Positions 25,781 to 37,416 of a stretch of DNA of 37,416 nucleotides are shown here, in pieces. Numbering within the stretch: the first letter of the stretch is position 1; the number at the start of each line of letters is the position of its first letter. The notes beneath the pieces are model-generated. The model saw only the letters and a program-made list of their open reading frames with translations. It searched no databases and had not been told where the DNA came from. Source of the DNA: Bacteroidales bacterium (GTDB lineage Bacteria > Bacteroidota > Bacteroidia > Bacteroidales > UBA932); contig JAFZZW010000030.1 in the NCBI GenBank assembly GCA_017615615.1, positions 1 to 37,416 of the forward strand. Reading direction: 5' to 3'. A program made the position numbers and the translations under genes.

Positions 25781-27427
25781 TTATTTGTAGAGGAAACGTT
25801 TGATGCTCATCTTGGGGGTCTTCTCGAACGGGGTAAGCACAGTCTCGATCTTGGCGATCTGGCTATAGGCCGGGAGCTGGCGGTTGGCTGCGGTGCGTAC
25901 TTTTTCCGGGATGTCGGAGACGGTCTCGTTGTCCAGTTTGTCGCGCTTGATGGCCTCGGCGTCCAGATAAACAAGGCCGACTATCTTGCCAGCCCGGTCA
26001 ACGACGACGGACTCGGCGACGTACGGCTGGTTGTTGATTATGGCCTCGAGTTCCTCGGGATATACATTCTGGCCGTTGGCGGTGAGAATCATGCTCTTGG
26101 AGCGGCCCTTGATGAAGATGTTGCCGTCCTTGTCGATGATGCCGAGGTCTCCGGTGCGGAGGTATCCGTCCTCGGTGAAGGCGTTGGCGGATGCTTCGGG
26201 GTTCTTGAAATAGCCGATGGTGATGTTCTCGCCCTTCGCCTGGATTTCTCCGGCGATGTGCTGGGGATCTTCGGAGTCGATGCGAACGGTGGCGCAGTCG
26301 ACGGCCTTGCCGCAGGAACCGGGAACATATTTATCCCAACGCTCGTATGCAAGAAGGGGGCAGGCTTCCGTCATGCCGTAGCCGACAAGATAAGGGAGCT
26401 TGATGCGGCGGAAGAGCTTTTCCGCCTCGGGGTTGAGGGCGGCGCCGCCCATGATGAAGCGCTCGCATTCGCCTCCGAATGCCGCCATCAGGCCGTCTTT
26501 TACCTTCTTGTATATGATGTTGTTGATGCCGGGGATGTGGAGGAGGACCTTTACCAGGGGCTTGTCGAGGGTGGGCTTGACCTTGCTCTTGTAGATCTTC
26601 TCCATGACCAGGGGCACGGTGATGAGCTGGTAGGGCTTGACGTCCGCGAACGCCTTGAGAAGCGTGGCGGGAGTGGGGGCCTTGCCGAGCCAGTAGATGG
26701 CGGTGCCGTTGCACAGAGGGTAGATGAACTCGATGACGAGGCCGTACATGTGGGCCATGGGGAGCATGGAGACCATTCTCTCACCAGCGGGAACGTTGCG
26801 CTGGCTGTAGTCAACGTTGGCGCTGAAGTTACGGTAGGTGAGCATGACTCCCTTGGGGTCTCCCGTGGAACCGGAAGTGTAGCTGATGGTGGAAAGGTCG
26901 TCCCAGTTGTCGGTGGGGAACACCACGTCGGAGGGGCCGTAGCCGTCCTGCCATTTGGCCTCGAAGAGGTCGTCCATGGTGTCGTAGGTTTCCTTTGTCT
27001 CAGCGTCCTTGGCCCAAAGGCATTTCCAGCTGTCGATGTCGATGACAAGGCGGAGCTGGGGCATCTTGGCGAGGTCCATCCTGGCGAATTTGTCTTCGTT
27101 GGTGAAGAGGGCGACGCTCTCGGAGTGGTTCACGAGGAACGAAGCACTGTCGGGGGTGAAATCGGCGAGGAGGGGGACGATGACGGTTTCGTATGTGTTG
27201 ACGGCCATGTAGCTCATGCCCCAGCGGGCGCCGTTGCGGGCGTAGAGGGCTATTTTTTCGCCTTTCTTGAATCCGAGCTTGCCGAAAACGAGGTGAAATT
27301 TCTCAATCTGGGTGGCCATCTGGCCGTAGGTGAAGGAATCGCCGCCTATGCTGTTGAGTGCTGACTTGTCCCAGTACTTGCGGGTGGCATTCTGCAGGCG
27401 TTCCAGATAATGGGGATAATTAGCCAT
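25781..27427 (-). CDS. Long-chain fatty acid--CoA ligase (AMP-forming)
   Basis: A 548-residue ANL-superfamily adenylating enzyme. The phosphate-binding loop ISYTSGSTGDPKG is near residue 185, then YGMTEACP near 345, the hinge GYLRTGDLG near 425, and the catalytic Lys region near the C-terminus (KTPKMSIKRFLYK). It activates a fatty acid with ATP and CoA at the inner membrane, for phospholipid remodelling or exogenous acid use. Chain length is inferred from family resemblance only. The ATG at 27427 (MANYPHYLERLQ) is preferred over an open extension because a TACTTTTG box lies just upstream, within that extension. Confidence 0.88.
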   Translation of the reverse strand: MANYPHYLERLQNATRKYWDKSALNSIGGDSFTYGQMATQIEKFHLVFGKLGFKKGEKIALYARNGARWGMSYMAVNTYETVIVPLLADFTPDSASFLVNHSESVALFTNEDKFARMDLAKMPQLRLVIDIDSWKCLWAKDAETKETYDTMDDLFEAKWQDGYGPSDVVFPTDNWDDLSTISYTSGSTGDPKGVMLTYRNFSANVDYSQRNVPAGERMVSMLPMAHMYGLVIEFIYPLCNGTAIYWLGKAPTPATLLKAFADVKPYQLITVPLVMEKIYKSKVKPTLDKPLVKVLLHIPGINNIIYKKVKDGLMAAFGGECERFIMGGAALNPEAEKLFRRIKLPYLVGYGMTEACPLLAYERWDKYVPGSCGKAVDCATVRIDSEDPQHIAGEIQAKGENITIGYFKNPEASANAFTEDGYLRTGDLGIIDKDGNIFIKGRSKSMILTANGQNVYPEELEAIINNQPYVAESVVVDRAGKIVGLVYLDAEAIKRDKLDNETVSDIPEKVRTAANRQLPAYSQIAKIETVLTPFEKTPKMSIKRFLYK

Positions 27428-27454
27428 ACTTTTGGATTTGGGTTTTTGCGGCGG

Positions 27455-27486
27455 CAAAAGTAGGTGTTGGGACGAGTTTTTGCAAT
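27455..27486 (-). promoter_or_regulatory. Promoter of the acyl-CoA ligase gene
   Basis: ATTG (27486-27483), a 20-base spacer and TACTTTTG (27462-27455) on the minus strand. It gives a leader of about 22 bases. Confidence 0.55.
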
Positions 27487-27555
27487 CCCGTGTGCGTGTA
27501 TGTGGCGAATAATTACGATATTTGTGGCGAAAACGTTAAATCTGTGGTGAATTTT

Positions 27556-28398
27556 ATGAGAAAGAAGCCCATTGTCGCATTGATCTATGACTTCGACGGC
27601 ACCCTGTCGCCCGGCAATATGCAGGAGTTCGGGTTCATCCAGGCCGTCGGCTCCACACCCGATGAATTCTGGCGCATGTCCGACGCCATCGCAATCGGTC
27701 ACGACGCTTCCAACGTTCTGGCATATATGAAACTCATGTACGACGAGGCCCATGCCAAGGGTATCCGTCTGCGCAAGTCCGAACTCCGTGCGTTCGGAGC
27801 CCATATCCAGCTGTTCGACGGCGTCCGCGAGTGGTTCCGCATGGTCAACGAGTACGGCGCCCGCAAAGGTGTGCGCATCGAGCATTACATCAACTCCAGC
27901 GGCCTCAAGGAAATCATCGAAGGAAGTCCCATAGCGGGGGAGTTCAAGCATATTTTCGCCGGTACTTTCATATATAATTCGGAGGGTGAGGCCGAGTGGC
28001 CGGGAATAGCGGTGGACTATACCGCCAAGACGCAGTTCCTGTTCAAGATATCAAAGGGAATCTTCAGCTCCCGCGATACCAAGAGGGTCAATTCCTCCAT
28101 CGCCGACGACGAAAAACGCATCCCGTTCAGCCACATGATATATTTCGGAGACGGTGAAACGGACGTGCCCTGCATGAAGATCGTCGGCATGTTCGGCGGT
28201 CACAGCGTCGCCGTGTACAATCCCGACTCCCAGAAAAAGAAGGCCGCCGCCCTCAAGCTCAAACGTCAGGGAAGGGTGGAATTCGCCACCCCGGCCCGCT
28301 ACACGCAGGATTCCCGCACATTCGAGCTGGTGTGCGCCATCATCGACAAGATCAAAGCCGACTGCGAACTGGCACGTATGTCCAGGATGGTCGTTTAG
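27556..28398 (+). CDS. HAD-superfamily phosphatase
   Basis: A 280-residue haloacid-dehalogenase-type hydrolase. Motif I DFDGT is at 12-16 (nucleophile Asp12, acid Asp14), a Ser/Thr motif II HYINSSG lies near 115, and motif IV YFGDGETDVPCMK near 195. The helical insert between motif I and II suggests a phosphoserine-phosphatase-like C1 cap. The substrate is not identifiable. The frame is open 66 bases upstream, but ATG 27556 gives MRKKPIVALIYDFDGTLS, the usual distance to motif I. It converges on folE. Confidence 0.8.
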   Translation: MRKKPIVALIYDFDGTLSPGNMQEFGFIQAVGSTPDEFWRMSDAIAIGHDASNVLAYMKLMYDEAHAKGIRLRKSELRAFGAHIQLFDGVREWFRMVNEYGARKGVRIEHYINSSGLKEIIEGSPIAGEFKHIFAGTFIYNSEGEAEWPGIAVDYTAKTQFLFKISKGIFSSRDTKRVNSSIADDEKRIPFSHMIYFGDGETDVPCMKIVGMFGGHSVAVYNPDSQKKKAAALKLKRQGRVEFATPARYTQDSRTFELVCAIIDKIKADCELARMSRMVV

Positions 28399-28403
28399 CT
28401 TCC

Positions 28404-28444
28404 TGTCATTTCGACCGGAGCCGGAACGGCGGAGCGGAGAAATC
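28404..28444. repeat. Candidate dispersed intergenic repeat with ATTTC/GAAAT ends
   Basis: A GC-rich 41-base sequence starting TGTCATTTCGACCGGAG and ending GCGGAGAAATC fills the gap between two convergent stops. Its ends are inverted (ATTTC/GAAAT). Similar TCATTTCGA...GAGAAATC units recur between genes in many Bacteroidota, from memory. Only one copy is in this window. Confidence 0.4.
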
Positions 28445-28446
28445 CC

Positions 28447-29034
28447 CTACTTTATAAGATTGAGGAATTCGTTCCTCGTACGGGACGAACTTAAAAACAC
28501 ACCGCTGAATGCGGACGTCGTGGTGATGGCATTGGACTTCTGGACGCCGCGAACCTGCATGCAGGTATGATTGGCCTCGATGACGACGGCCACACCAAGA
28601 GGCTGCAGGGCATCCTGAATGCAGTCGCGGATCTGGACGGTAAGGCGCTCCTGAACCTGCAGCCGGCGTGCGAAGGTTTCCACTACGCGGGCGATTTTGC
28701 TCAGGCCGGTGATTTTGCCGTTTGGAATATAGGCCACGTGGCACTTGCCGATGAACGGCATCATGTGGTGCTCGCAGGTACTGTAGAGTTCGATGTCCTT
28801 CACGAGGACCATCTGCCGGTATTTCTCGTCGAAGACGGCCTTGCGGATAATCTCTATGCCGTCCTCCAGATAACCCTTGGTGGTAAACTGCAGAGCCTTT
28901 GCGACTCTCTCCGGTGTTTTTATAAGTCCCTCACGCTCAGGGTCTTCGCCCAAGAGCCTTAGAATTTCTCGGACATGTCCGGCAATTTCTTCGGTCGTCC
29001 GGGGAGAGTACAATTCTTCTTTTTCGTAAGACAT
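28447..29034 (-). CDS. folE: GTP cyclohydrolase I
   Basis: A 195-residue type I (FolE) enzyme converting GTP to 7,8-dihydroneopterin triphosphate for folate or related pterins. Zinc ligands are Cys87 and His90 in [10 protein letters not shown] and Cys158 in [30 protein letters not shown] is the conserved substrate helix. The ATG at 29034 follows a TATTTTTG box by 4 bases, so the mRNA should be leaderless; upstream in-frame codons would lie in the promoter. It diverges from the DUF2795 gene. Confidence 0.95.
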
Positions 29035-29038
29035 GATG

Positions 29039-29046
29039 CAAAAATA
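29039..29046 (-). promoter_or_regulatory. -7 box of folE
   Basis: TATTTTTG on the minus strand, a full TAnnTTTG match ending 4 bases before the folE ATG. The -33 element is not clear. Confidence 0.5.
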
Positions 29047-29056
29047 CTCAAAAATA

Positions 29057-29086
29057 TTTGCACTTGAGAATAATTTTATATCTTTG
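29057..29086 (+). promoter_or_regulatory. Promoter of the DUF2795 gene
   Basis: TTTG (29057-29060), an 18-base spacer and TATCTTTG (29079-29086): a consensus promoter 28 bases before the ATG. Confidence 0.65.
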
Positions 29087-29114
29087 CGGCCTGAAAGCAA
29101 AATTGACTGACGCT

Positions 29115-29336
29115 ATGTATTGGACACTAGAATTAGCCAGCAGCCTGGACGATGCTCCGTGGCCGGCAACAAAAGACGAACTCATAGACTACGCCAACCG
29201 CTCAGGCGCCCCTGAAGAAGTTATCGAAAACCTCCAGGAACTCGAGGAGGAAGGCGAAATATACGAAACCATCGAGGACATCTGGCCCGATTACCCGACC
29301 AAAGAGGATTTCTTCTTTAACGAGGAAGAGTATTAA
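29115..29336 (+). CDS. DUF2795 family small acidic protein
   Basis: A 73-residue acidic protein starting MYWTLELASSLDDAPWPATK, with APEEVIENLQELEEEGEIYE and ending PTKEDFFFNEEEY. It is a highly conserved Bacteroidota protein of unknown function (DUF2795). The helical middle with the DELIDYANRSGAP turn resembles a small DNA- or protein-binding fold, but nothing is established. The ATG at 29115 is preferred to an earlier in-frame one inside the promoter. A strong terminator follows at about 29409. Confidence 0.85.
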   Translation: MYWTLELASSLDDAPWPATKDELIDYANRSGAPEEVIENLQELEEEGEIYETIEDIWPDYPTKEDFFFNEEEY

Positions 29337-29387
29337 GACGTTTTCCGCTATTTTGCCAGGCTTAGTAAAATTGGCTAAGTGATTGAA

Positions 29388-29444
29388 AATAAGCGATTTA
29401 ACGCATTGAGCGCCCTGTTTTAGGGCGCTTTTTTTTCGCTTATT
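29388..29444 (+). terminator. Terminator after DUF2795 with an outer inverted repeat
   Basis: AGCGCCC-TGTTTTA-GGGCGCT (29409-29429) is followed by seven T: a textbook intrinsic terminator. It is enclosed by AATAAGCG (29388-29395) and its complement CGCTTATT (29437-29444). This is the last clearly chromosomal feature before the integrative element. Confidence 0.85.
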
Positions 29445-29477
29445 AGTGCCGTTTTAGGCTTTTTCACCATCGGCCTC

Positions 29478-29539
29478 CTACGACATTCTACGGCCATCTA
29501 TGGACAAATAAACTTACTAATAATTTGACTAGTAAGTTT
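29478..29539. repeat. Repeats ahead of the integrase, candidate attachment or operator region
   Basis: Three roughly 10-base direct units (CTACGACATT at about 29478, CTACGGCCAT, CTATGGACAA) run to about 29507. They are followed by a perfect 10-bp inverted repeat AAACTTACTA / TAGTAAGTTT (29510-29519 and 29530-29539) with a 10-base centre. The right arm overlaps the integrase -33 element. Such layouts fit integrase or Xis binding sites. Confidence 0.5.
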
Positions 29540-29568
29540 TGAAAAAATGTACAAAAGAAGTATATTTG
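29538..29568 (+). promoter_or_regulatory. Promoter of the integrase gene
   Basis: TTTG (29538-29541), a 19-base spacer and TATATTTG (29561-29568): a full consensus match 15 bases before the ATG. Confidence 0.7.
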
Positions 29569-29583
29569 TAAAAAGTATATGTT

Positions 29584-30927
29584 ATGGGAAAAGTTAAGTC
29601 AGATATTCCACGAGGCCGATTTGTATTCAGGAACGGTCCAAATCCAAGCGGTGAAAGGGCGCTGAATATACAGTATGTCCTGGACTCTGTGCCAGTTTAC
29701 AGATCCACAGGCATCTTCCTTCACCCGGACAATTGGAATGCAGCCAAGCAGGAAGTGAGGGCGAAATGCCCGGACGCAACACGTTTGAACAAGAAGCTCG
29801 CGGCATTCAAATCAAAGATAGATAGCGAATTACACGCCTGTGATAACATCATCACGGTTGAAGTCCTCAGGGCTATCGTCAAAGGTGATTACAACAATAT
29901 GGGTAAAGACACCAATTTCGTTGACTTTGCCGACAAGTACAATGAAATGCGGTATGAGAACGGAAAACTGAGCTATTCCACTTACTACAATGCCCAGCTC
30001 AGTATCCGTAATTTCCGGAAGTTCCTCGCGGAAAAGAGAATCCCGGAACCTCGTGTAAGTAACGTGACAGCAGCGCTCATAGAAAAGTATAAGGAGTACA
30101 ACATGTACGAAAAACACATGACATCCAAAGATGCCATCAATAAGAAGCTAGCCCCCATCATTGTGGCGGCCCGCTATGCTTCCGATAATGGCTTGCTGGA
30201 TGCGAGAATCGCTACACTTATAGGCCAGGCATATTTCGATATCAATTCCCGACAGTATGACAGTGAAGAAGCACATGAAAGGGTTGTCCGCTATCTGACG
30301 GAGGAACAGATTAGCCAGTTCTGTTCATTCTACAACGAGACGACGGATGTCCGCCGGCATCGAATCATGGATATTTTCCTCTTCTCCTATTATACTTGTG
30401 GCCTGCGTGTTTCCGACCTGGTGACACTGGAGTGGTCACAGATAGATATGGGAAAGCGTGAATTGGTCAAGAAGATTGTCAAGACGAAGAAACGCCTGCG
30501 CGTACCTCTGTGTGATGAGGCGATAGAGATATTGGAAAAATACAAGAAACTAAACAAGAATCCCAGATTTGTTTTCAACTGCCTCCCTGAAGATTTTAAC
30601 CTTGCAGACGCGGCAAAACTGGATATGACGTTGAAAGCAAAGAACAGAAATTTTCAAACGAGTTTGCGGGCATGGGGCGAAAGAATGAAACTTCCTTTTA
30701 CACTGACTATGCATGTCGCAAGACATTCGTTTGCCGTGCAGGCCTTGAACAATGGAATGGATGTGCACATGATCAGTACGCTGCTTGGCCATTCGACATC
30801 TTCAATTACCGAGAGGGTCTATGCCAAGTTCCTGGACCAGACGCTGGACAACGCCGTGATGGAGAAGATGCCGTTTAAGTTCTCTTCTAAACCGGGATGC
30901 GTCAACGATGGCCCTGTTGTTTCCTGA
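29584..30927 (+). CDS. Tyrosine-type site-specific recombinase (integrase)
   Basis: A 447-residue tyrosine recombinase of the Bacteroidota integrase group. It has an N-terminal arm-binding-like domain (about 10-100), a SAM-like core-binding domain (about 115-215, FVDFADKYNEMRYENGKLS), and a catalytic domain. Catalytic residues: Arg in TCGLRVSDLVTLEW near 274, the His-x-x-Arg box HVARHSF near 377-380, His in LLGHSTSS near 403, and the nucleophile Tyr in ERVYAKF near 413. All are present, so it should be active. It would integrate and excise the element with the adjacent HTH protein. Its last 26 bases overlap that convergent gene. It has its own consensus promoter with a 10-bp inverted repeat, suggesting regulation. 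Confidence 0.94.
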   Translation: MGKVKSDIPRGRFVFRNGPNPSGERALNIQYVLDSVPVYRSTGIFLHPDNWNAAKQEVRAKCPDATRLNKKLAAFKSKIDSELHACDNIITVEVLRAIVKGDYNNMGKDTNFVDFADKYNEMRYENGKLSYSTYYNAQLSIRNFRKFLAEKRIPEPRVSNVTAALIEKYKEYNMYEKHMTSKDAINKKLAPIIVAARYASDNGLLDARIATLIGQAYFDINSRQYDSEEAHERVVRYLTEEQISQFCSFYNETTDVRRHRIMDIFLFSYYTCGLRVSDLVTLEWSQIDMGKRELVKKIVKTKKRLRVPLCDEAIEILEKYKKLNKNPRFVFNCLPEDFNLADAAKLDMTLKAKNRNFQTSLRAWGERMKLPFTLTMHVARHSFAVQALNNGMDVHMISTLLGHSTSSITERVYAKFLDQTLDNAVMEKMPFKFSSKPGCVNDGPVVS

Positions 30928-31180
30928 AGGAATCGAAGTGATTGTTCATCAAGAATTCCCTAACATCATCATCTGAGAAAAAATACTTGTCCCCGACTTT
31001 GGTATAAGACAGATAACCATCTTCCCTATAACGACGGATTGTACGCTCGCTGACCCCTAAAAGGTCGGCGAGTTTCTCTACTGTATATACCCTGAGCGTA
31101 AGGTTGAATGTCGATGTAAGAGCTTTAACCAGCGCAGAAAGATTGGGGCTATGTATTTCTTCACGCTCTTTCATATGCAT
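30902..31180 (-). CDS. Excisionase-like helix-turn-helix protein
   Basis: A 92-residue protein with a MerR-like winged HTH at about 32-80: YTVEKLADLLGVSERTIRRY is the recognition unit, then the wing GDKYFFSDDDVREFL. This is the HTH_17/excisionase family. Next to an integrase it probably directs excision or regulates int. An alternative ATG lies at 31174, two codons inside. The 3' end overlaps the integrase gene by 26 bases, so their transcripts are antisense at the tail. No clear promoter box is seen upstream. Confidence 0.75.
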   Translation of the reverse strand: MHMKEREEIHSPNLSALVKALTSTFNLTLRVYTVEKLADLLGVSERTIRRYREDGYLSYTKVGDKYFFSDDDVREFLMNNHFDSFRKQQGHR

Positions 31181-31518
31181 GTACCTAATGTCATATCCGC
31201 TGAATAGCCACGTAAGGCTTCCAGTACCCTGTTCGGCGGGATGTTGTATGATGGGTTTTCAAACATGCCAGTTTTTTTTATTTTTTGCTTGCAAAACCAA
31301 AGTTTTTGCCTACATCTGTCAAGTCAAATCTGATAGGTTAGCTTGTTGGCTAACATTACAAAGGAAAAGGATATGCGTAAGATTCGCAAATTTGAAAAGG
31401 AAAAGTGTTGGAAAAACCGATGAAAAATGGAGCAGTAAAAAGTACCGCTGAGGCTACTGAGCCCCAGAATTCAGGGCCTGGATTCACATCTTCATTTTCT
31501 TTCTCACCTCCCTCAATT

Positions 31519-31646
31519 CGGGCCGCAGGCCCGCAGCAGGCGACTCCGGAGCCTGTAATGCCCGCTGTAAGGCGTACGAGATGTCCCGCAGGGGCAGCGT
31601 TCGTGACACGAACGCACATCTCGCAATTTGGACTAAGGCCCAAATT
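31519..31646. repeat. Cluster of nested inverted repeats
   Basis: In order: CGGGCC-GCA-GGCCCG (31519-31533); CAGGC...GCCTG around CTCCGGAG (31537-31555); CGAGATGT (31577-31584) pairing with ACATCTCG (31616-31623) and enclosing the 19-base palindrome GCGTTCGTGACACGAACGC (31597-31615); and AATTTGG / CCAAATT (31625-31646). The GC content is above that of the flanking DNA. Confidence 0.75.
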
Positions 31647-31672
31647 CCGCGCACCTCTGAAAATCTCGCTTC

Positions 31673-31848
31673 TGTAGATTGCCAGAACTCGTGATCACGA
31701 GAACTATTGATCTCCAGAACACGAGAACACGAGAATGTGAGAATGAGAGAATGAGAGATTCTCAGAATGCCAGAACTATAGGACTGTAGAATGAGAGAAC
31801 CACAGTTTGAGAGAATGTGATAACTATAAAATGAGAGATTACGAGCAA
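31673..31848. repeat. 8-bp-phased degenerate tandem array, consensus NNNAGAAY
   Basis: Cut every 8 bases from 31673, the sequence gives 22 consecutive units with no phase slip, such as GCCAGAAC, ACGAGAAC, ACGAGAAT, GTGAGAAT, GAGAGAAT and CTCAGAAT. Positions 4-5 are AG in nearly all units and positions 6-8 mostly AAC, AAT or ATT. The first three positions vary but reuse a few triplets (GAG, ACG, TAT, GCC, GTG). Two units (TCGTGATC, TATTGATC) deviate. The array has no spacers, so it is not CRISPR. Confidence 0.8.
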
Positions 31849-31880
31849 TAAGCTGCCTTTCTTGTCTCCCAGGAAAAAGT

Positions 31881-32002
31881 TACTCAAAACTTAGGATGGG
31901 GTTTGGAAAGTACTCAATTCTTAGGAGAAATCTACTCAAAACTTAGGAAGAAGTTACTCATTTCTTAGGAGATCGTACCTGAAATCTACTCAATTCTTAG
32001 GA
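31881..32002. repeat. Five iteron-like direct repeats TACTCAWWWCTTAGGA
   Basis: 16-base copies start at 31881, 31911, 31933, 31955 and 31987. TACTCA and CTTAGGA are invariant, while the middle is AAA, ATT, AAA, TTT, ATT. Start-to-start spacings are 30, 22, 22 and 32 bases, close to whole helical turns, so a protein could bind them on one DNA face. Possible roles are replication-initiator iterons, integrase/Xis arm sites, or the multiple terminal repeats of an IS21-like end. Confidence 0.8.
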
Positions 32003-32267
32003 GATATTGCAGGATAAGCAGCTGTAAACACCTGATAATCAGGCTGTCGCAAAAGGAGAAATGCGCCGTACAAATAGAATCAATACAAGAATAAATAATA
32101 TATAAACAACGCGCGCGAGGAGATGAGAAGAAAAACCTTGACGTTGGAGAGTTTGCCCACGAAGGAATGCGGGTCTTCGAAATAATAGACTATCAATAGC
32201 AGACGATGCAATTTGTTCAGATTTTTAACCTTTTTATTTACTTATTTATAAATTGTTAACAGGTTAA

Positions 32268-32299
32268 TTTGTTTTATTGATTCATTCTTTGTACCTTTG
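32268..32299 (+). promoter_or_regulatory. Promoter of the AbiEi-like/AbiEii operon
   Basis: TTTG (32268-32271), a 20-base spacer and TACCTTTG (32292-32299): a full consensus match. The palindrome TTAACAGGTTAA (32256-32267) abuts the -33 element and could be an operator. The box ends 4 bases before the GTG start. Confidence 0.7.
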
Positions 32300-32303
32300 C
32301 ATT

Positions 32304-32933
32304 GTGAAGGTAAAGAATCATATAGAGAATGAGTACGCCGCAGGGTGTGCCAGAGTAAGTGGCGGTTGCGTCGCCTACCATGGCGCGCTGCAATACTACG
32401 CCTTGCAGACACAGCAGTTCAACACCATATATCTGCATTCCGACAAACGGTTTCGCCCGTTTGTTATTGACGGTGTCGCATATGAGTACCATCCTCTTAA
32501 ATTCACTTACAATGTAGTCATCAGCAAGGACCCGGATGGAAACCCCATTGCCGTAACATCTCTTTCCCAGACGGTGGTGGACTGCATCCGCCACATTGAC
32601 TTGGCTGGAGGACTGGAAGAACTTCTCTATGCGCTTTCGTCCATCCCTTACGGGCAGTTAAAGGAGAAGGACCTTATGGTTTGCCTGGAGGCGTATGACA
32701 ACGCTTCCCTTTGGAGCAGGACTGGGTATCTACTCTCCCTCTTCCAGAGCACCAACGGCATCGGCCAGCGTTTTATCGACATCTGCCGCATAAAAGGCAG
32801 TGGCGTTAAGAATAAGATAACAAGCGGAGACAAAGCTCTGGAGTTTGTCCCCAAGTGGAATTTGTTCGTGCCCAAGGATATGGGCAATATGATCACGAAA
32901 GGAACGGAATATGGAACAGAAGTCATATACTAA
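32304..32933 (+). CDS. AbiEi-family antitoxin lacking the usual N-terminal winged helix
   Basis: A 209-residue protein resembling the C-terminal domain of type IV antitoxin AbiEi: VAYHGALQYYAL near 28-39, then the strands IYLHSDKRFRPF and YEYHPLKF, the segment PIAVTSLSQTVVDCI and a helical tail. AbiEi proteins normally begin with a winged HTH of about 80 residues that binds their own promoter; here the similarity begins almost at residue 15. The GTG at 32304 lies 4 bases after a consensus box, so no longer start is possible on this mRNA, and the upstream DNA shows no frame for the missing domain. It overlaps the toxin gene by 23 bases. It should still counter the toxin but may not repress. 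Confidence 0.75.
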   Translation: MKVKNHIENEYAAGCARVSGGCVAYHGALQYYALQTQQFNTIYLHSDKRFRPFVIDGVAYEYHPLKFTYNVVISKDPDGNPIAVTSLSQTVVDCIRHIDLAGGLEELLYALSSIPYGQLKEKDLMVCLEAYDNASLWSRTGYLLSLFQSTNGIGQRFIDICRIKGSGVKNKITSGDKALEFVPKWNLFVPKDMGNMITKGTEYGTEVIY

Positions 32934-33870
32934 GAAGGAACTCCGCGCATTGATGGAAGCCACCGGGTATCCTATGGCATCCATAGAGAAGACCATGCGC
33001 CTTTTGGAACTGCTCAAGGCGATTAACGCAGATACCTTGCTTGGAGAGAACTTGACGCTGAAGGGCGGCACCGCCATCAATATCATCCACTATAGCGAAA
33101 TCCCCAGGTTGAGTGTTGATCTGGACTTTGACTTAGCCCGCAACACCCCTAAAGAAGAGATGTTGCAGGTGAAGGATGAAGTGTCTTCGCGTATCCGAAA
33201 TCTGGCAGCATCGATGGGCTACTTCCTGAGCGATCCTCGTCCCAACTATGCGATTCATCAGACAGAACTGTATTACAAGAGTGCAACCGGAAACCGTGAC
33301 AAAATAAAGCTGGACATCAACTGCCTTTCACGTTGTCATGTGTATGAGCCTGTGGTCAGGGAAGCCCGGAATCCGTTCCTTCCAGGAGATGTCTTCCAGG
33401 TGCGGATGCTCTCTGAATATGAATTGTTCGGAGCAAAATTGAAAGCCCTTCTTGAACGGAATACCCCCAGGGATATTTTCGATGCTTATACGCTTGAGCA
33501 GAAAGGATTATACCGTGATGAGGAGTCCATTACGCTCATCCGCAAATGCATTGTCTATTACCTTTCACTTTCACGTGGTGTTGACCTTGAACAGGCACTC
33601 GAGGCCATCCGCAACCGGCCAATTCAGGACTTCAAGAAGCAACTGTTCCCCATGCTTAAGACAGGATACGGTTTCGTCGACCGTGACCTGATGACTTCTG
33701 AGGCAGTCAAATGTGTTTCCAGGTTTTTGGACTTCACGCAGAACGAGGTTCAATACCTCGAAGAAGCGAAAGCAGGAGCATACCATCCCGAGCTGCTTTT
33801 TGACGGCGAAGCCGCTGAGCGGATAGCCGAGAATCCCGCTGCCAAGTTCTACATTACAAGCAAAGCTTAA
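32911..33870 (+). CDS. AbiEii-type nucleotidyltransferase toxin
   Basis: A 319-residue toxin of the AbiEii/AbiGii family (DUF1814, nucleotidyltransferase fold). LKGGTAINI near 50-58 and RLSVDLDFD near 67-75 form the GG/S-T plus DxD metal motif, and KLDIN near 133 gives the third acid. AKLKALLERNTPRDIFDAY near 175-193 is the signature Lys/Arg helix. Family enzymes transfer nucleotides, in some cases to tRNA, and stop growth in phage infection. Genes are ordered antitoxin then toxin with a 23-base overlap. All catalytic residues are present. Whether it defends against phage or only stabilises the element cannot be told. Confidence 0.9.
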   Translation: MEQKSYTKKELRALMEATGYPMASIEKTMRLLELLKAINADTLLGENLTLKGGTAINIIHYSEIPRLSVDLDFDLARNTPKEEMLQVKDEVSSRIRNLAASMGYFLSDPRPNYAIHQTELYYKSATGNRDKIKLDINCLSRCHVYEPVVREARNPFLPGDVFQVRMLSEYELFGAKLKALLERNTPRDIFDAYTLEQKGLYRDEESITLIRKCIVYYLSLSRGVDLEQALEAIRNRPIQDFKKQLFPMLKTGYGFVDRDLMTSEAVKCVSRFLDFTQNEVQYLEEAKAGAYHPELLFDGEAAERIAENPAAKFYITSKA

Positions 33871-34035
33871 CCATATCACTGGTTGTAGGTCCGCCCTCTG
33901 GTGCTATTCTGGAACGCCATTTTGGAGAGCAAGCGTATGAATAATCCCTGTGTCAAAATAATCAGATCGGCCATCAAGTTGGATGATGCGGCTTTTTCCC
34001 TTCCTCAAAGAAAACAATCAAAACAAGAATAAATC

Positions 34036-34353
34036 ATGGCAACAATAGCAACAAGTTCAAGCTTAAACGAACTTCTTAAAAGCCCCAAACCCGTCATTAT
34101 TGATTTCTGGGCACCCTGGTGCGGTCCATGCCGCACATTATCTCCGATACTTGAAGAGGTTGAAGCTGAATTGGCCGACAAGATTACCGTTGCAAAATGC
34201 AATGTTGATGAAGAAGAAACGCTTGCAACTCAGTTTCGTATTTTAAGCATTCCCACCCTGTTGTTCTTCAAGGACGGAGAGCTTGTTGACAAAAGTGTAG
34301 GAGCAGTTTCCAAGAAGGAACTGATTTCCAAAGTGCGCGAGAAGCTACTTTAG
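34036..34353 (+). CDS. Thioredoxin
   Basis: A 105-residue single-domain cytoplasmic thioredoxin with active site WCGPC at 28-32, cis-Pro73 in SIPTLLFF and no signal peptide. It reduces disulfides in the cytosol. As a cargo gene in an integrative element it is probably an extra copy. The 165 bases ahead (33871-34035) show no promoter box; a 31-codon frame at 33937-34032 is not convincing. The 3' end overlaps the convergent DUF1810 gene by 9 bases. Confidence 0.93.
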   Translation: MATIATSSSLNELLKSPKPVIIDFWAPWCGPCRTLSPILEEVEAELADKITVAKCNVDEEETLATQFRILSIPTLLFFKDGELVDKSVGAVSKKELISKVREKLL

Positions 34354-34770
34354 GCCCAATAGTTTTAGTGTGCTTTTGTCATATTCACCCTCGAAGAATA
34401 TGGAAAGCGCTTCGTGAAATACATCGTTTGGGCAAACCACATCGAACAGCGTCATTGAGGAGTGGAATTTCATAGCATCGATTCCACTGCCCATGATTAT
34501 GACGATGTTATCCTCCTGATGTGCGATAACTTCTTTCGTTATCTCCTTCAACCTGGCGCCAAGAATAGGATGCCCGACATAATCTCTCGCTTCTTCCAAA
34601 GACTCTATCCCGTAATACGTAGCGTATGTGCTATAACCAAGCCCTTTCATCTGCGGGAATATATACCATACCCAATGAGAACGTTTCTGTCCGTTCTTTA
34701 TTTCCTGTAGAGCGGTACTATATGACGGCCATCCTTCCTGAGCCTTGACAAAACGTTCCAGATTATACAT
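34345..34770 (-). CDS. DUF1810 family protein
   Basis: A 141-residue all-helical DUF1810 protein of usual length. The family core HWVWYIFPQMKGLG is at 32-45, then YYGIESLEEARDYVGHPILGARL, and MKFHSSMTLFD near 99. No function is established for the family. It starts 3 bases after the stop of the channel-like gene, so the two are almost surely one operon. That pairing is the only clue to its role here: it may act on, or be controlled by, whatever the channel senses. It converges on the thioredoxin gene. Confidence 0.85.
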   Translation of the reverse strand: MYNLERFVKAQEGWPSYSTALQEIKNGQKRSHWVWYIFPQMKGLGYSTYATYYGIESLEEARDYVGHPILGARLKEITKEVIAHQEDNIVIIMGSGIDAMKFHSSMTLFDVVCPNDVFHEALSIFFEGEYDKSTLKLLGLK

Positions 34771-34773
34771 AGT

Positions 34774-36864
34774 TTATTTAACATCTCCTGAAAGCGATTT
34801 CAGCCCTTTGTAAATGCCAGGAATCTTCTTAACGAGATCCGGGTCATATTCAATAACACCAGCATCAACACTTTCCAAGCGTTCCCGTGAGGTAATGTCC
34901 AGATGTGCGCGTTCTTCCCTCTTATACCTATTCTTAACGTCATCGCCGCCTAAAATAACTTCCCTCTGCTCTGTCTCCAGCAAAGGTCTGTATCTTGTAA
35001 GCAATTGCTCCACATTCCATCTTACATGCTCGGTTTTGCCAAGTATATCCACCATATCCTCGGGAATGGTCCCATCCATTGACCCCACACTACGGAGTTT
35101 AGTCCACATATGGGAGGCATTATATATGTTTGACCACATATTGGCCGCTGCAGATTTCGATTTGGACGCCTTCTTCAGTTGCTTTCGGGCATCAGCCACA
35201 AGCATTTCCTGAAGAGTTGGTGCGCCCTCACTTGAGAGACTGCCCGCTGCAAATACCAGTTTCCGCACAAGAGTCAAGTCGTACGCATCTGTTTTCATTC
35301 CAAACGAATGAATCCTTGCATATGGTGCGAAACCCGATATTGAGCTGTTTGAAAGGGTGCTCACGATTGAGTCACCTGTCGGCTGGTAAACTAATACTTG
35401 AACAGCTTTCTTATAGACAACGTGCGGCAGATTCAATCCAACAGCAATTGAATGACTGGTATTTGGAACACAGACCGCTATGGTCAATCTGGTATGAACA
35501 TCTTCGGCTACTTCCTTTATGTAATCCTGAATGGCAGGATTCTCGACATCTCCATTGATAAACTCCCACTCAAGATCTATGAAATCCTTCCCAAGGTGCT
35601 CTGTCTTAGTCTTATAAGGCGACTTTGAATCCTTATCTTTTAGAGGATACTTCCAAGGCGTTTCGCTGATTCTTTCCGTGTAGTAACCATAATCGTTCTC
35701 TCCAGCATTGACATATCTCCAGGACGCCGTTTGGAACATGGCATCCATACTGCCTTGAAGATGGTACATTTCATCCCTGACCTTCTTGTCTATGAAGGTG
35801 ATACGTGTCTTGCATTTGGGATTATTTACATAATTGGGATAATGCCCCAGATGTGCGGCCTGCATTCCCATTGCAACCCCCATGCGGGACATTCCTATAA
35901 CTATAAGATGAACATGGTCTTCCGAATCCGGGCCGACACCAGTTTTACCCTCTAACGGCAGATATGGGGAGGCTTCAGGCATCAGTGAATCATTTACAAA
36001 CACCTTTCTTGCCCACATCGCGTAGTAATTAAAGGGCATAAAAGCCAACTTGTTCAAAACCTTGTTATTAAGATCAGTATGCTGGAAAACGGCAAATGTT
36101 GAGTGATGCTCAAACATCACGTGACACAACACTTTATCTTCATCTATTGCTGGGGCAGGAATACAGTCAACGATGTTTTCCAAGCACTGGAGAACTGCTG
36201 TATCGTGAGAGGAATCCACGCCCAACATCATGTCTTCGCCAAGAATAAAGACCTCTCTGGACTTTTGGATGCGCATCATAGGCAAATCCAAAATGGATGA
36301 AATATCTCCTTCCTGAAGAATGATCTTATTCATCTGAGGTTTTGTCAAAACGCGAGCCAGTTCATTCCTAGCCTTCTCAACTTTGTTGGTTTGAATTATG
36401 AAGTAGCAATCGTATCCGGAAGAGTAAAGCTGTTTAAGGAGGCCCGGCAACATCTCATGGTAGCCAAAGACGGCGACATGATTCTTTACTTTATAATGAG
36501 TTTCTCCTGCCAGATATCGCTGGGCCAACTTGTCAAATGAGTTGGTGAATAACGAAGTCAGTACAGCAACCAGCATAACGCCGATAATAGTGATGAGCCA
36601 TCCTAAATCGGGCATATTGCCCAGTTTGTTCTCCCCACCATTGGTAAACAGATGGTAGAACGCAGCAGATACCGGACCGTCTGCTTGATAGTCAATAATA
36701 GCCCATTTGCACTCCTTGGCGAAACTGAACCCCAACGAGATTATACCGAGTAGAAGAACGACTAAAATGGCATAGAAAGCAAATTGATACCAGCCGCCTT
36801 TTGCAAGTGCACGGTGCGCTTGTAATTTTATCCAACTCCAAGGGCTTATTGTACTCTTTTTCAT
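34774..36864 (-). CDS. Two-TM channel-like protein with tandem RCK-like domains and a C-terminal RyR-like domain
   Basis: A 696-residue membrane protein. TM1 is about 27-48, a pore-loop-like segment (AAFYHLFTNGG) about 66-78, and TM2 about 88-108. A first Rossmann/RCK-like domain starts about 128 (NHVAVFGYHEMLPGLLKQL) and a second about 317 (VHLIVIGMSRMGVAMGM, then RITFIDKK). A helical linker runs about 556-590. The C-terminus (about 605-690) has EHVRWNVEQLLTRYRP and, later, AHLDITSRERL and LVKKIPGIY, which match the prokaryotic RyR-domain pattern. Two RCK domains per subunit recall CASTOR/POLLUX and BK channels, so a ligand-gated ion channel is likely; the selectivity filter is not K+-like (no TVGYG). 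It heads an operon with DUF1810 and diverges from an ECF sigma factor. The RyR call is by pattern and somewhat uncertain. Confidence 0.72.
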   Translation of the reverse strand: MKKSTISPWSWIKLQAHRALAKGGWYQFAFYAILVVLLLGIISLGFSFAKECKWAIIDYQADGPVSAAFYHLFTNGGENKLGNMPDLGWLITIIGVMLVAVLTSLFTNSFDKLAQRYLAGETHYKVKNHVAVFGYHEMLPGLLKQLYSSGYDCYFIIQTNKVEKARNELARVLTKPQMNKIILQEGDISSILDLPMMRIQKSREVFILGEDMMLGVDSSHDTAVLQCLENIVDCIPAPAIDEDKVLCHVMFEHHSTFAVFQHTDLNNKVLNKLAFMPFNYYAMWARKVFVNDSLMPEASPYLPLEGKTGVGPDSEDHVHLIVIGMSRMGVAMGMQAAHLGHYPNYVNNPKCKTRITFIDKKVRDEMYHLQGSMDAMFQTASWRYVNAGENDYGYYTERISETPWKYPLKDKDSKSPYKTKTEHLGKDFIDLEWEFINGDVENPAIQDYIKEVAEDVHTRLTIAVCVPNTSHSIAVGLNLPHVVYKKAVQVLVYQPTGDSIVSTLSNSSISGFAPYARIHSFGMKTDAYDLTLVRKLVFAAGSLSSEGAPTLQEMLVADARKQLKKASKSKSAAANMWSNIYNASHMWTKLRSVGSMDGTIPEDMVDILGKTEHVRWNVEQLLTRYRPLLETEQREVILGGDDVKNRYKREERAHLDITSRERLESVDAGVIEYDPDLVKKIPGIYKGLKSLSGDVK

Positions 36865-36916
36865 ATGTAGCAGATTAGAATTCGGGTAAATTTAGCGAAT
36901 TTTCATCGTTTTTTAG

Positions 36917-36924
36917 TAAATTTG
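36917..36924 (+). promoter_or_regulatory. -7 box of the ECF sigma gene
   Basis: TAAATTTG, a full TAnnTTTG match 18 bases before the ATG, with TTTA at 36891-36894 as a weak -33. The palindrome TAAATTTA (36887-36894) could be the -7 box for the divergent channel operon, so the two promoters overlap. Confidence 0.5.
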
Positions 36925-36942
36925 CTTGATTAATTGACAAAT

Positions 36943-37416
36943 ATGCAACCAACTGACACACAAATCATCGACGCCTTGATAGCAAAAGACGAGAAGATGA
37001 CGCACGATTTCTTTTTTGTGTGGTGTCGCCCACTCTTATATTCCATCATCAGAAAAGTGTTCAATTACGAGGTCGATTATGACGAACTCGTAAACGAATT
37101 GTATATCTATCTGCTTGAAAAGGATGGGCGGCGTCTTCGTACCTTCCAAGGGCGCAGCAGCATCTTTCTATGGCTTAAATGTGTAGCCACAAGATTCTTC
37201 TTGGAGAAACGAGATGGTGGTGCTGTGATAGAAGACGCATCTTCTGAACCTCTTTATCCCATAGACGAACCCACTTTTGAGCCTTTGGAGAAAGAGACGA
37301 TAAAACAGGATGTCCGGAGACTGCTTGAATTGATGCATAATCCGCGTAATCGGATGGTCCTGAAACGTATTATGATTGATGATGTTGATTATGAGGAGCT
37401 CGCCGTAGAGATGAAC
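36943..37416 (+). CDS. ECF-type RNA polymerase sigma factor (partial, C-terminus outside window)
   Basis: Open from ATG 36943 to the right edge, 158 codons with no stop. The region-2 pattern is FQGRSSIFLWLKCVATRF at about 68-85, where family members usually read FRGESSFxTWLxxIA. A short acidic linker follows, then the first part of region 4 (RRLLELMHNPRNRMVLKRIM...YEELAVEM). It would direct transcription of a specific gene set; no anti-sigma gene is visible. It diverges from the channel/DUF1810 operon with overlapping promoter DNA, so it may regulate that operon, but the target is unknown. Confidence 0.75.
   Translation, partial: MQPTDTQIIDALIAKDEKMTHDFFFVWCRPLLYSIIRKVFNYEVDYDELVNELYIYLLEKDGRRLRTFQGRSSIFLWLKCVATRFFLEKRDGGAVIEDASSEPLYPIDEPTFEPLEKETIKQDVRRLLELMHNPRNRMVLKRIMIDDVDYEELAVEMN

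Follow-up and report, generated by a model that had tools for sequence, protein, structure and literature searches.

A Bacteroidales channel-like protein with a C-terminal RyR domain: a candidate effector of ADP-ribose-type signalling beside a DUF1810 gene

Introduction

What would a bacterium use a membrane channel with a C-terminal RyR domain for, and does the DUF1810 gene directly downstream of it belong to the same system? The question is raised by two genes near the end of contig JAFZZW010000030.1 (assembly GCA_017615615.1) of a Bacteroidales bacterium of the UBA932 lineage; this contig, 37,416 nucleotides long and analysed as a whole, is called the window below. On balance, we think that the larger gene encodes a cation channel gated by an ADP-ribose-type signal. 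In an immune or stress module of the TIR type this channel would probably be the effector, and the DUF1810 protein would tune the signal.

Animal physiologists have long asked whether cyclic ADP-ribose (cADPR) acts on ryanodine receptors via their RyR domains. In phages, RyR domains that bind or cleave 2'/3'cADPR have been described (preprint, May 2026, PMC13232231). An oomycete paper, in the portion available, calls the function of the RyR domain unknown and records its presence in bacteria, archaea and viruses (PMC7399828). In a paper on methylation in a Cellulophaga phage, likewise available in part, a phage RyR protein appears solely as a table entry (PMC13288928). In the literature searched, which leaves most subscription papers and bioRxiv-only preprints outside, we found no paper joining the RyR domain with the RCK domain, and none joining it, in prokaryotes, with SLOG; we make no claim of priority. 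The statement in an earlier note on this DNA that comparative work places RyR domains among sensors of nucleotide-derived signals could not be traced in the same literature, where DUF1810 is rarely named.

Results

A RyR domain with a conserved ligand site at the C-terminus

The Pfam RyR model (PF02026) gave no match to the window protein at E ≤ 1, its gathering score of 27.4 bits not being reached, and a Pfam RyR scan of the window's own genome is uninformative because it misses this copy. The RyR region of the channel family, compared as a profile with that of standalone RyR proteins encoded beside related channels, was matched with 89.7% probability (hhalign, E = 1.8e-6). These standalone partners match PF02026 at ~1e-35 and also RyR1-3; one of them matches the Bacteroides thetaiotaomicron 'putative ryanodine receptor' 3nrt at 7.6e-37. 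PF02026 itself was found in 5 of 17 aligned members of the channel family (E ≤ 0.1, best 2.1e-6).

The ADP-ribose-ligand residues of RyDEP, the Mycobacterium phage DyoEdafos protein gp78, are H75, W78, H100 and D117 (PMC13232231). All four were present at those numbers in the fetched RyDEP sequence, and they align to H613, W616, H654 and D674 of the window protein. These positions are kept in 43, 44, 44 and 43 of 44 channel rows, an alignment from which rows without a full RyR region were left out; in 112, 116, 116 and 111 of 116 channel rows, duplicates included; and in 22, 22, 21 and 22 of 22 standalone RyR rows. The ligand residues are stated to be conserved in R12 of ryanodine receptors (PMC13232231), and R12 of RyR3 is described, in the part of the source available, as binding adenine nucleotides in a cleft that includes Trp880 and Trp994, with a link to gating (PMC12627627). 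Since the RyDEP residues align, are near-invariant and have an adenine-nucleotide-binding counterpart in R12, there is a strong inference that the window domain would bind an ADP-ribose-type nucleotide. As far as sequence comparison goes, the RyR identity of the C-terminus, which the earlier note had proposed, is secured by the relatives and the four ligand residues despite the Pfam miss.

The same residues lend themselves to another reading, namely that the domain ends signalling, as a RyDEP-like glycosidase or as a sponge, and that the protein is an off-switch or immunity part instead of an effector. The two catalytic residues of RyDEP, H75 and D117, have their counterparts here, and phage RyR proteins act in this manner (PMC13232231). 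We nevertheless regard this reading as quite improbable: the other phage homologues tested did not cleave the signals, though 6 of 8 bound them (PMC13232231), an enzyme needs neither a pore nor an RCK ring, and the separate RyR gene found at many related loci fits that role better.

The predicted pore and RCK regions are nearest those of CASTOR

In the window protein, a pore-like loop lies between two hydrophobic segments, two hydropathy peaks that agree with the two-transmembrane (2-TM) pore-like segment of the earlier note. The note had also named two Rossmann/RCK-like domains. The first is recovered through relatives: Slo-like_RCK stayed under the Pfam cutoff in the window protein (E = 0.019) and was matched at E ≤ 0.1 in 13 of the 17 aligned members (best 9.3e-7), two of which matched TrkA_N. 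For the second, the evidence is a Rossmann-type motif. The 17-member profile matched CASTOR (3.5e-5, mainly over RCK1), DMI1 (5.9e-5) and BK (7.2e-4) in the PDB and, more weakly, 4gx0/4gx5, a TrkA-domain channel that we take to be GsuK (2.3e-3), and MthK (0.026).

By majority, the family filter reads D-P-G-N-Q, with D in 91, P in 91, G in 107, N in 73 and Q in 50 of 116 rows. The window (TNGGE) and four relatives from its clade (TTGG or SGD-type filters) depart from this majority. Because the filters of the window and its clade differ from those of the family, the ion selectivity of the window channel cannot be guessed. Among eight outside rows in the alignment, five keep D-x-G, one (L088) has D-P-T, L094 has a K+-type TTGYGD, and L091 bears a RyR domain. 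A canonical K+ channel of the BK/MthK type was rejected as a candidate, as the TVGYG filter is absent and FTNGGEN stands in its place; the filter aspartate of CASTOR/POLLUX (D-x-G-N) is also absent from the T-N-G-G of the window. By profile and motif comparison, the predicted pore/RCK part is nearest plant CASTOR/DMI1 and not the TVGYG K+ channels.

TIR, DUF4062 and separate RyR genes lie near related channels

Of 199 genomes sampled from the window's family, its own included, 20 encode the channel; a profile search, with partial matches counted, gave 50 of 398 genomes. A single-protein scan of genome contigs returned no relatives; an alignment-based scan returned 86, from which 80 loci were kept. 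No homologue was confirmed in viral contigs, none was found in plasmids, and phage records gave one partial match.

Neighbour models were built from the loci, which were then searched with the same cutoff as the controls (E < 1e-4). The first set comprised 53 loci, 52 of which had an open reading frame (ORF) matching the channel model (L146 gave none). Within 6 kb there was a separate RyR gene in 24/52, TIR in 14/52, DUF4062 in 7/52 and DUF1810 in 1/52, the window; PEGA (6/52), nSTAND1 (5), CHAT, FHA and PP2C (3 each) were also present. The second set, 80 named loci that are mostly labelled Bacteroidales or its families, with many from herbivore gut and some contigs common to the first set, gave RyR in 35, TIR in 25, DUF4062 in 15, either TIR or DUF4062 in 39, and DUF1810 in none. 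The RyR counts of these sets include some large proteins and possible channel paralogs; channel-model matches are excluded from the pooled RyR count that follows. From 132 pooled loci, L149, L152 and L155 (truncated or without RyR) and L151 and L156 (<350 amino acids) were excluded, which left 127 loci, grouped at 95% identity into 108 clusters. Within 6 kb, 54 clusters had RyR, 33 TIR, 16 DUF4062, 48 TIR or DUF4062, and 76 any of the three. At distances of up to 100 bases from the channel and on the same strand, DUF4062 was found in 11 clusters and TIR in 7.

RyR, TIR, DUF4062 and DUF1810 were all at zero both in 20 random loci of the same genomes and in 20 loci of RyR-less channels of the same superfamily. 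The random loci were our own choice among the available contigs, at a distance from the channel; L172, one of these loci, holds a weak channel-model match (E = 5.9e-6). The RyR-less channels (14 of 620-664 and six of 351-394 amino acids) came from 20 of 22 non-own genomes, G414, which has RyR, and G543 being left out. The neighbour association had a Fisher P of 3.3e-5, a value that ignores relatedness. Pfam confirmed TIR_2 in 8/8 TIR proteins scanned, and two of these, with nSTAND1 proteins next to them, are SIR2_2-TIR fusions; DUF4062 was confirmed in 2/2, and RyR was matched in nine neighbour or partner proteins, in one of them below the cutoff. One paper (PMC13174449, available in part) places DUF4062, a family of TIR-like NADases, in defence against phage; a search of its text met no mention of RyR, ryanodine or a channel. 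The ligand residues, the TIR and DUF4062 neighbours and the two controls together speak for the earlier proposal of a RyR channel that senses nucleotide-derived signals in a conflict setting.

The protein could instead be a metabolic or osmotic channel, whose RyR domain would read NAD+/ADP-ribose status so that ion balance is adjusted in stress, the conflict-type neighbours reflecting shared residence on islands. Consistent with this, RyR-less channels of the same superfamily lack NADase neighbours and look like general ion channels, and the sigma-like genes at 11 loci described below would fit a regulated stress response. We believe this explanation to be unlikely, as island residence would hardly be enough to place an NADase gene within 100 bases and on the same strand in 11 (DUF4062) and 7 (TIR) clusters.

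Several other arrangements were observed around the family. In L138, L139, L259-L263, L265-L266, L268-L269 and L278-L280, RyR channel genes of ~600 amino acids overlap an upstream DUF4062 gene of ~1000 amino acids by a few bases (Pfam-checked in L138); L143, where Pfam was also run, is of the same kind. Three loci encode an RCK/RyR-like protein without TM segments beside an MscS-type gene (L047:6754-9023, L153:6998-9171, L154:825-3028; PF00924 in 3/3), an arrangement that fits one sensor module driving different pores. An operon-like run at L043:2871-15232 holds TIR (local model), PEGA, a 676-amino-acid protein that matches RyR below cutoff, an RCK/RyR protein lacking TM segments, a trypsin-like peptidase, a protein kinase and a CHAT-model protein. 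A contig labelled Rickettsiales and perhaps misbinned (L226) has genes for a RyR channel of Bacteroidales type and for a RyR protein, and an 1886-amino-acid ORF with a TIR-model match. Two unverified human-gut 'phage' scaffolds (L348, MT836850.1; L349, MT837259.1) encode RyR proteins 62-67% identical to a channel partner, and MT836850.1 also matches the channel. RyR-domain relatives occurred in 261 of 50,697 phage records at E ≤ 0.01; the 60 rows listed were mostly hypothetical proteins, with a dozen labelled alanyl-tRNA synthetase. Phage RyR proteins of this sort are candidates for anti-Thoeris proteins.

The closest relatives of the window channel stand in TIR operons

In a 43-row full-length tree, the window channel grouped with L131, L144, L135 and L137 (support 100/100), all of which lie in TIR - PEGA protein - channel operons with the four TIRs confirmed by Pfam. 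L030 and L032, with SIR2_2-TIR genes, adjoin this clade with weaker support (93/81). BLAST identity to the window channel was 41% for L131, then 35-36% for L135, L144 and L137, with L029 and L030 close behind at similar identity. The named set held two more TIR-PEGA-channel operons (L207, 42%; L210, 36%). When labels were shuffled on the tree, a test with a weak outcome, the RyR-only label gave a value as low in 27/500 shuffles.

The local TIR model found no TIR at positions 27001-37416 of the window. Upstream of the channel the contig continues for 552 bases and then breaks off within a divergent gene that weakly resembles a sigma factor. Its fragment matched Sigma70_r2 with 19.0 bits (E = 0.0012), below the 24-bit cutoff. 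Five relatives were scanned: L214 gave Sigma70_r2 at 14.2 bits (0.039), L373 gave DUF1492 at 19.3 bits (0.0013), below cutoff, and L036, L041 and L233 gave no sigma match in Pfam. The sigma reading of this gene is weak. The gene family was present at 11/133 loci searched, six of which had seeded the search model, and at 0/40 control loci; the 11 include the window, and the members named are L373:7932-8597, L233, L231, L041, L214, L223, L244, L036 and L243. In 8/11 loci the gene is directly followed by a RyR protein of 321-389 amino acids (PF02026 confirmed in L036 and L041), the N-terminus of which appeared anti-sigma-like by eye in the six sequences inspected. The pair is possibly a ligand-controlled transcription switch. 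The closest relative of the divergent gene (G612, 51% identity) is followed by split SIR2/TIR ORFs, a reading that extends over two ORFs at L373:6283-7583, and an nSTAND1 protein (local models). Given these neighbours in relatives, SIR2/TIR and nSTAND1 in G612 and RyR proteins elsewhere, it is plausible that a missing NADase gene lies just beyond the contig end.

The DUF1810 gene is not a general partner of the channel

The two-gene layout was confirmed: the DUF1810 gene starts 3 bases after the channel stop, on the same strand, and its product matches PF08837 with 177.2 bits against a 25-bit cutoff. As a general partner of the module, DUF1810 had to be dropped, as it occurred in 1/108 non-redundant clusters, the window itself. 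The candidate that DUF1810 is a hidden RyR domain was likewise rejected, the RyR model matching no ORF of the DUF1810 loci examined.

DUF1810 was found in 9/200 genus genomes and 23/296 phylum genomes, the window's own included in both. Apart from the window, the DUF1810 loci had no channel, RyR or TIR gene in the stretches examined, many of which covered 1.5 kb on each side; this includes the other eight genus genomes. Together with the single cluster, this suits a reading of DUF1810 as an unrelated passenger placed after the channel by chance, which we rate as a serious possibility a little short of even. Against it stand the 3-base spacing on one strand and the relatives tied to ADP-ribosylglycohydrolase, an activity that belongs to the chemistry of RyR ligands. 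The closest fetched relative (55%, G629; L083:7866-8738) overlaps such a gene (PF03747, 4.6e-34), and two others are fused to one (52%, viral contig L286:293-1600; 49%, G764, L082:8901-10196). Relatives at 50-52% between those showed no such link, and across the DUF1810 family it is rare (1/42 DUF1810 ORFs in 61 viral loci; 2/8 other genus genomes). Because the two nearest fetched relatives associate with ADP-ribosylglycohydrolases, a local link of DUF1810 to the channel module is possible, and DUF1810 may take the place of the separate RyR protein in handling the signal, the least secure step of the proposed mechanism.

Surroundings of the locus

The features of the locus are collected in Table 1. 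The convergent thioredoxin gene is probably a flank outside the system. The earlier note had placed both genes within an integrative element beside an AbiE-type pair; the pair and an integrase are indeed nearby, but element membership is unproven: the window contains no tRNA that could mark a border, and the genes scanned at 6-26 kb include some of core type (NQR, TyrRS, Hsp90).

Table 1. Positions of the features in the window and the evidence for each.
Feature	Position	Strand	Evidence
Divergent, weakly sigma-factor-like gene, cut by contig end, ATG at 36943	36943-37416	+	Sigma70_r2 E=0.0012
Channel ORF, 696 amino acids	34774-36864	-	ORF; family of 17 aligned; RCK/RyR in relatives
TM1, residues 28-46	36727-36783	-	hydropathy 2.63
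Filter-like pore motif T-N-G-G-E, residues 74-78	36631-36645	-	alignment
TM2, residues 87-105	36550-36606	-	hydropathy 2.36
First RCK-like region, residues 126-234	36163-36489	-	Slo-like_RCK E=0.019; 9.3e-7 in a relative
Second Rossmann/RCK-like region, ~residues 316-520, borders approximate, GMSRMG motif	35305-35919	-	sequence and alignments only
C-terminal RyR domain, ~residues 575-690, with H613, W616, H654, D674	34795-35142	-	relatives, profile comparison, alignment
DUF1810 protein, 141 amino acids	34345-34770	-	PF08837 E=1.9e-52; PDB 2jek Rv1873 E=1.9e-26
Thioredoxin, convergent	34036-34353	+	PF00085 E=4.4e-29
AbiEi/AbiEii pair, neighbouring system	32277-33870	+	AbiEii Pfam 3.1e-25; AbiEi PADLOC 4.9e-55
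Tyrosine integrase	29584-30927	+	PF00589 E=2.6e-25

Discussion

From the domain order, the ligand residues, the neighbour association and the phylogeny, all of which can be read from the sequences, we infer a ligand, a gating mode, an ion type, a defence role and a part for DUF1810. The pore would be of the 2-TM type, probably tetrameric, within the CASTOR/BK superfamily, and an RCK ring bearing the C-terminal RyR domains would gate it. A TIR or TIR-like NADase would make an ADP-ribose-type signal; upon its binding to the RyR domains the pore would open, cations would flow and the cell would depolarise, so that it stops or dies before phage spreads, as in abortive infection, or responds as a stress module. 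DUF1810, in the slot that in relatives is often taken by a separate RyR gene, would most likely bind or process ADP-ribose derivatives to tune or end the signal. Extended to a whole bacterial family of CASTOR-type cation channels, gated via RyR domains by TIR- or DUF4062-derived ADP-ribose signals, with the sigma-like/RyR-anti-sigma-like genes and DUF1810 as interchangeable signal-handling parts, the proposal is tentative, and we lean somewhat away from it.

Several observations weigh against the signal-gated effector channel. No match to Pfam TIR_2 was found in the window's own genome, an assembly that is 72% complete, and TIR-linked loci did not cluster clearly on the tree (114/500 shuffles were as low), so the TIR association appears scattered over the tree rather than the result of one old event. 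RyR, TIR and DUF4062 were all missing nearby in 32/108 clusters, the flanks of which are often cut. The reported product of DUF4062 is linear ADP-ribose, not cADPR (PMC13174449, available in part). The window filter, TNGGE, lacks the D-P-G-N of the family, the adjacency of DUF1810 to a channel is unique to the window locus, and the RyR domain might not sense the signal but hydrolyse it or act as a sponge for it.

Among known systems, the plant nuclear channels CASTOR, POLLUX and DMI1 have counterparts of the 2-TM pore and RCK ring predicted here and are the best PDB profile matches, and the family filter D-P-G-N resembles the A-D-S/A-G-N-H-A predicted for CASTOR (PMC6697748, available in part); the window protein differs in its C-terminal RyR domain, its bacterial origin and its TNGGE filter, and for CASTOR the predicted number of TM segments is four. 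Animal ryanodine receptors also attach a RyR/R12 domain to a cation channel, but they have ~5000 residues where the window protein has ~700 and one RyR domain, and their pore is built in another way. RyDEP shares all four ligand residues and, unlike the window protein, is a phage anti-defence enzyme without a channel. With Thoeris, in which TIR is paired with an effector of ADP-ribose-type signals, the window channel shares a TIR beside its close relatives (4/4 in the clade) and a predicted sensor of such signals; it differs in its putative channel effector with a RyR sensor and in the lack of a TIR in the window. The DUF1810 protein is a full-length family member like Rv1873 (PDB 2jek), from which it differs in standing beside a channel.

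TIR/ADP-ribose signalling is already known, and the predicted RyR-gated channel would be the new part here. If the proposal is true, TIR immune signalling gains an effector of the ion-channel type, and ADP-ribose chemistry becomes the first biochemical lead for DUF1810, a family that is widespread and of unknown function. The debated cADPR-ryanodine-receptor axis would also have a minimal counterpart in bacteria: with a 700-residue channel, one RyR domain, an intact ligand site and a signal-maker beside its relatives, the cADPR-RyR question would become directly testable in vitro and in E. coli.

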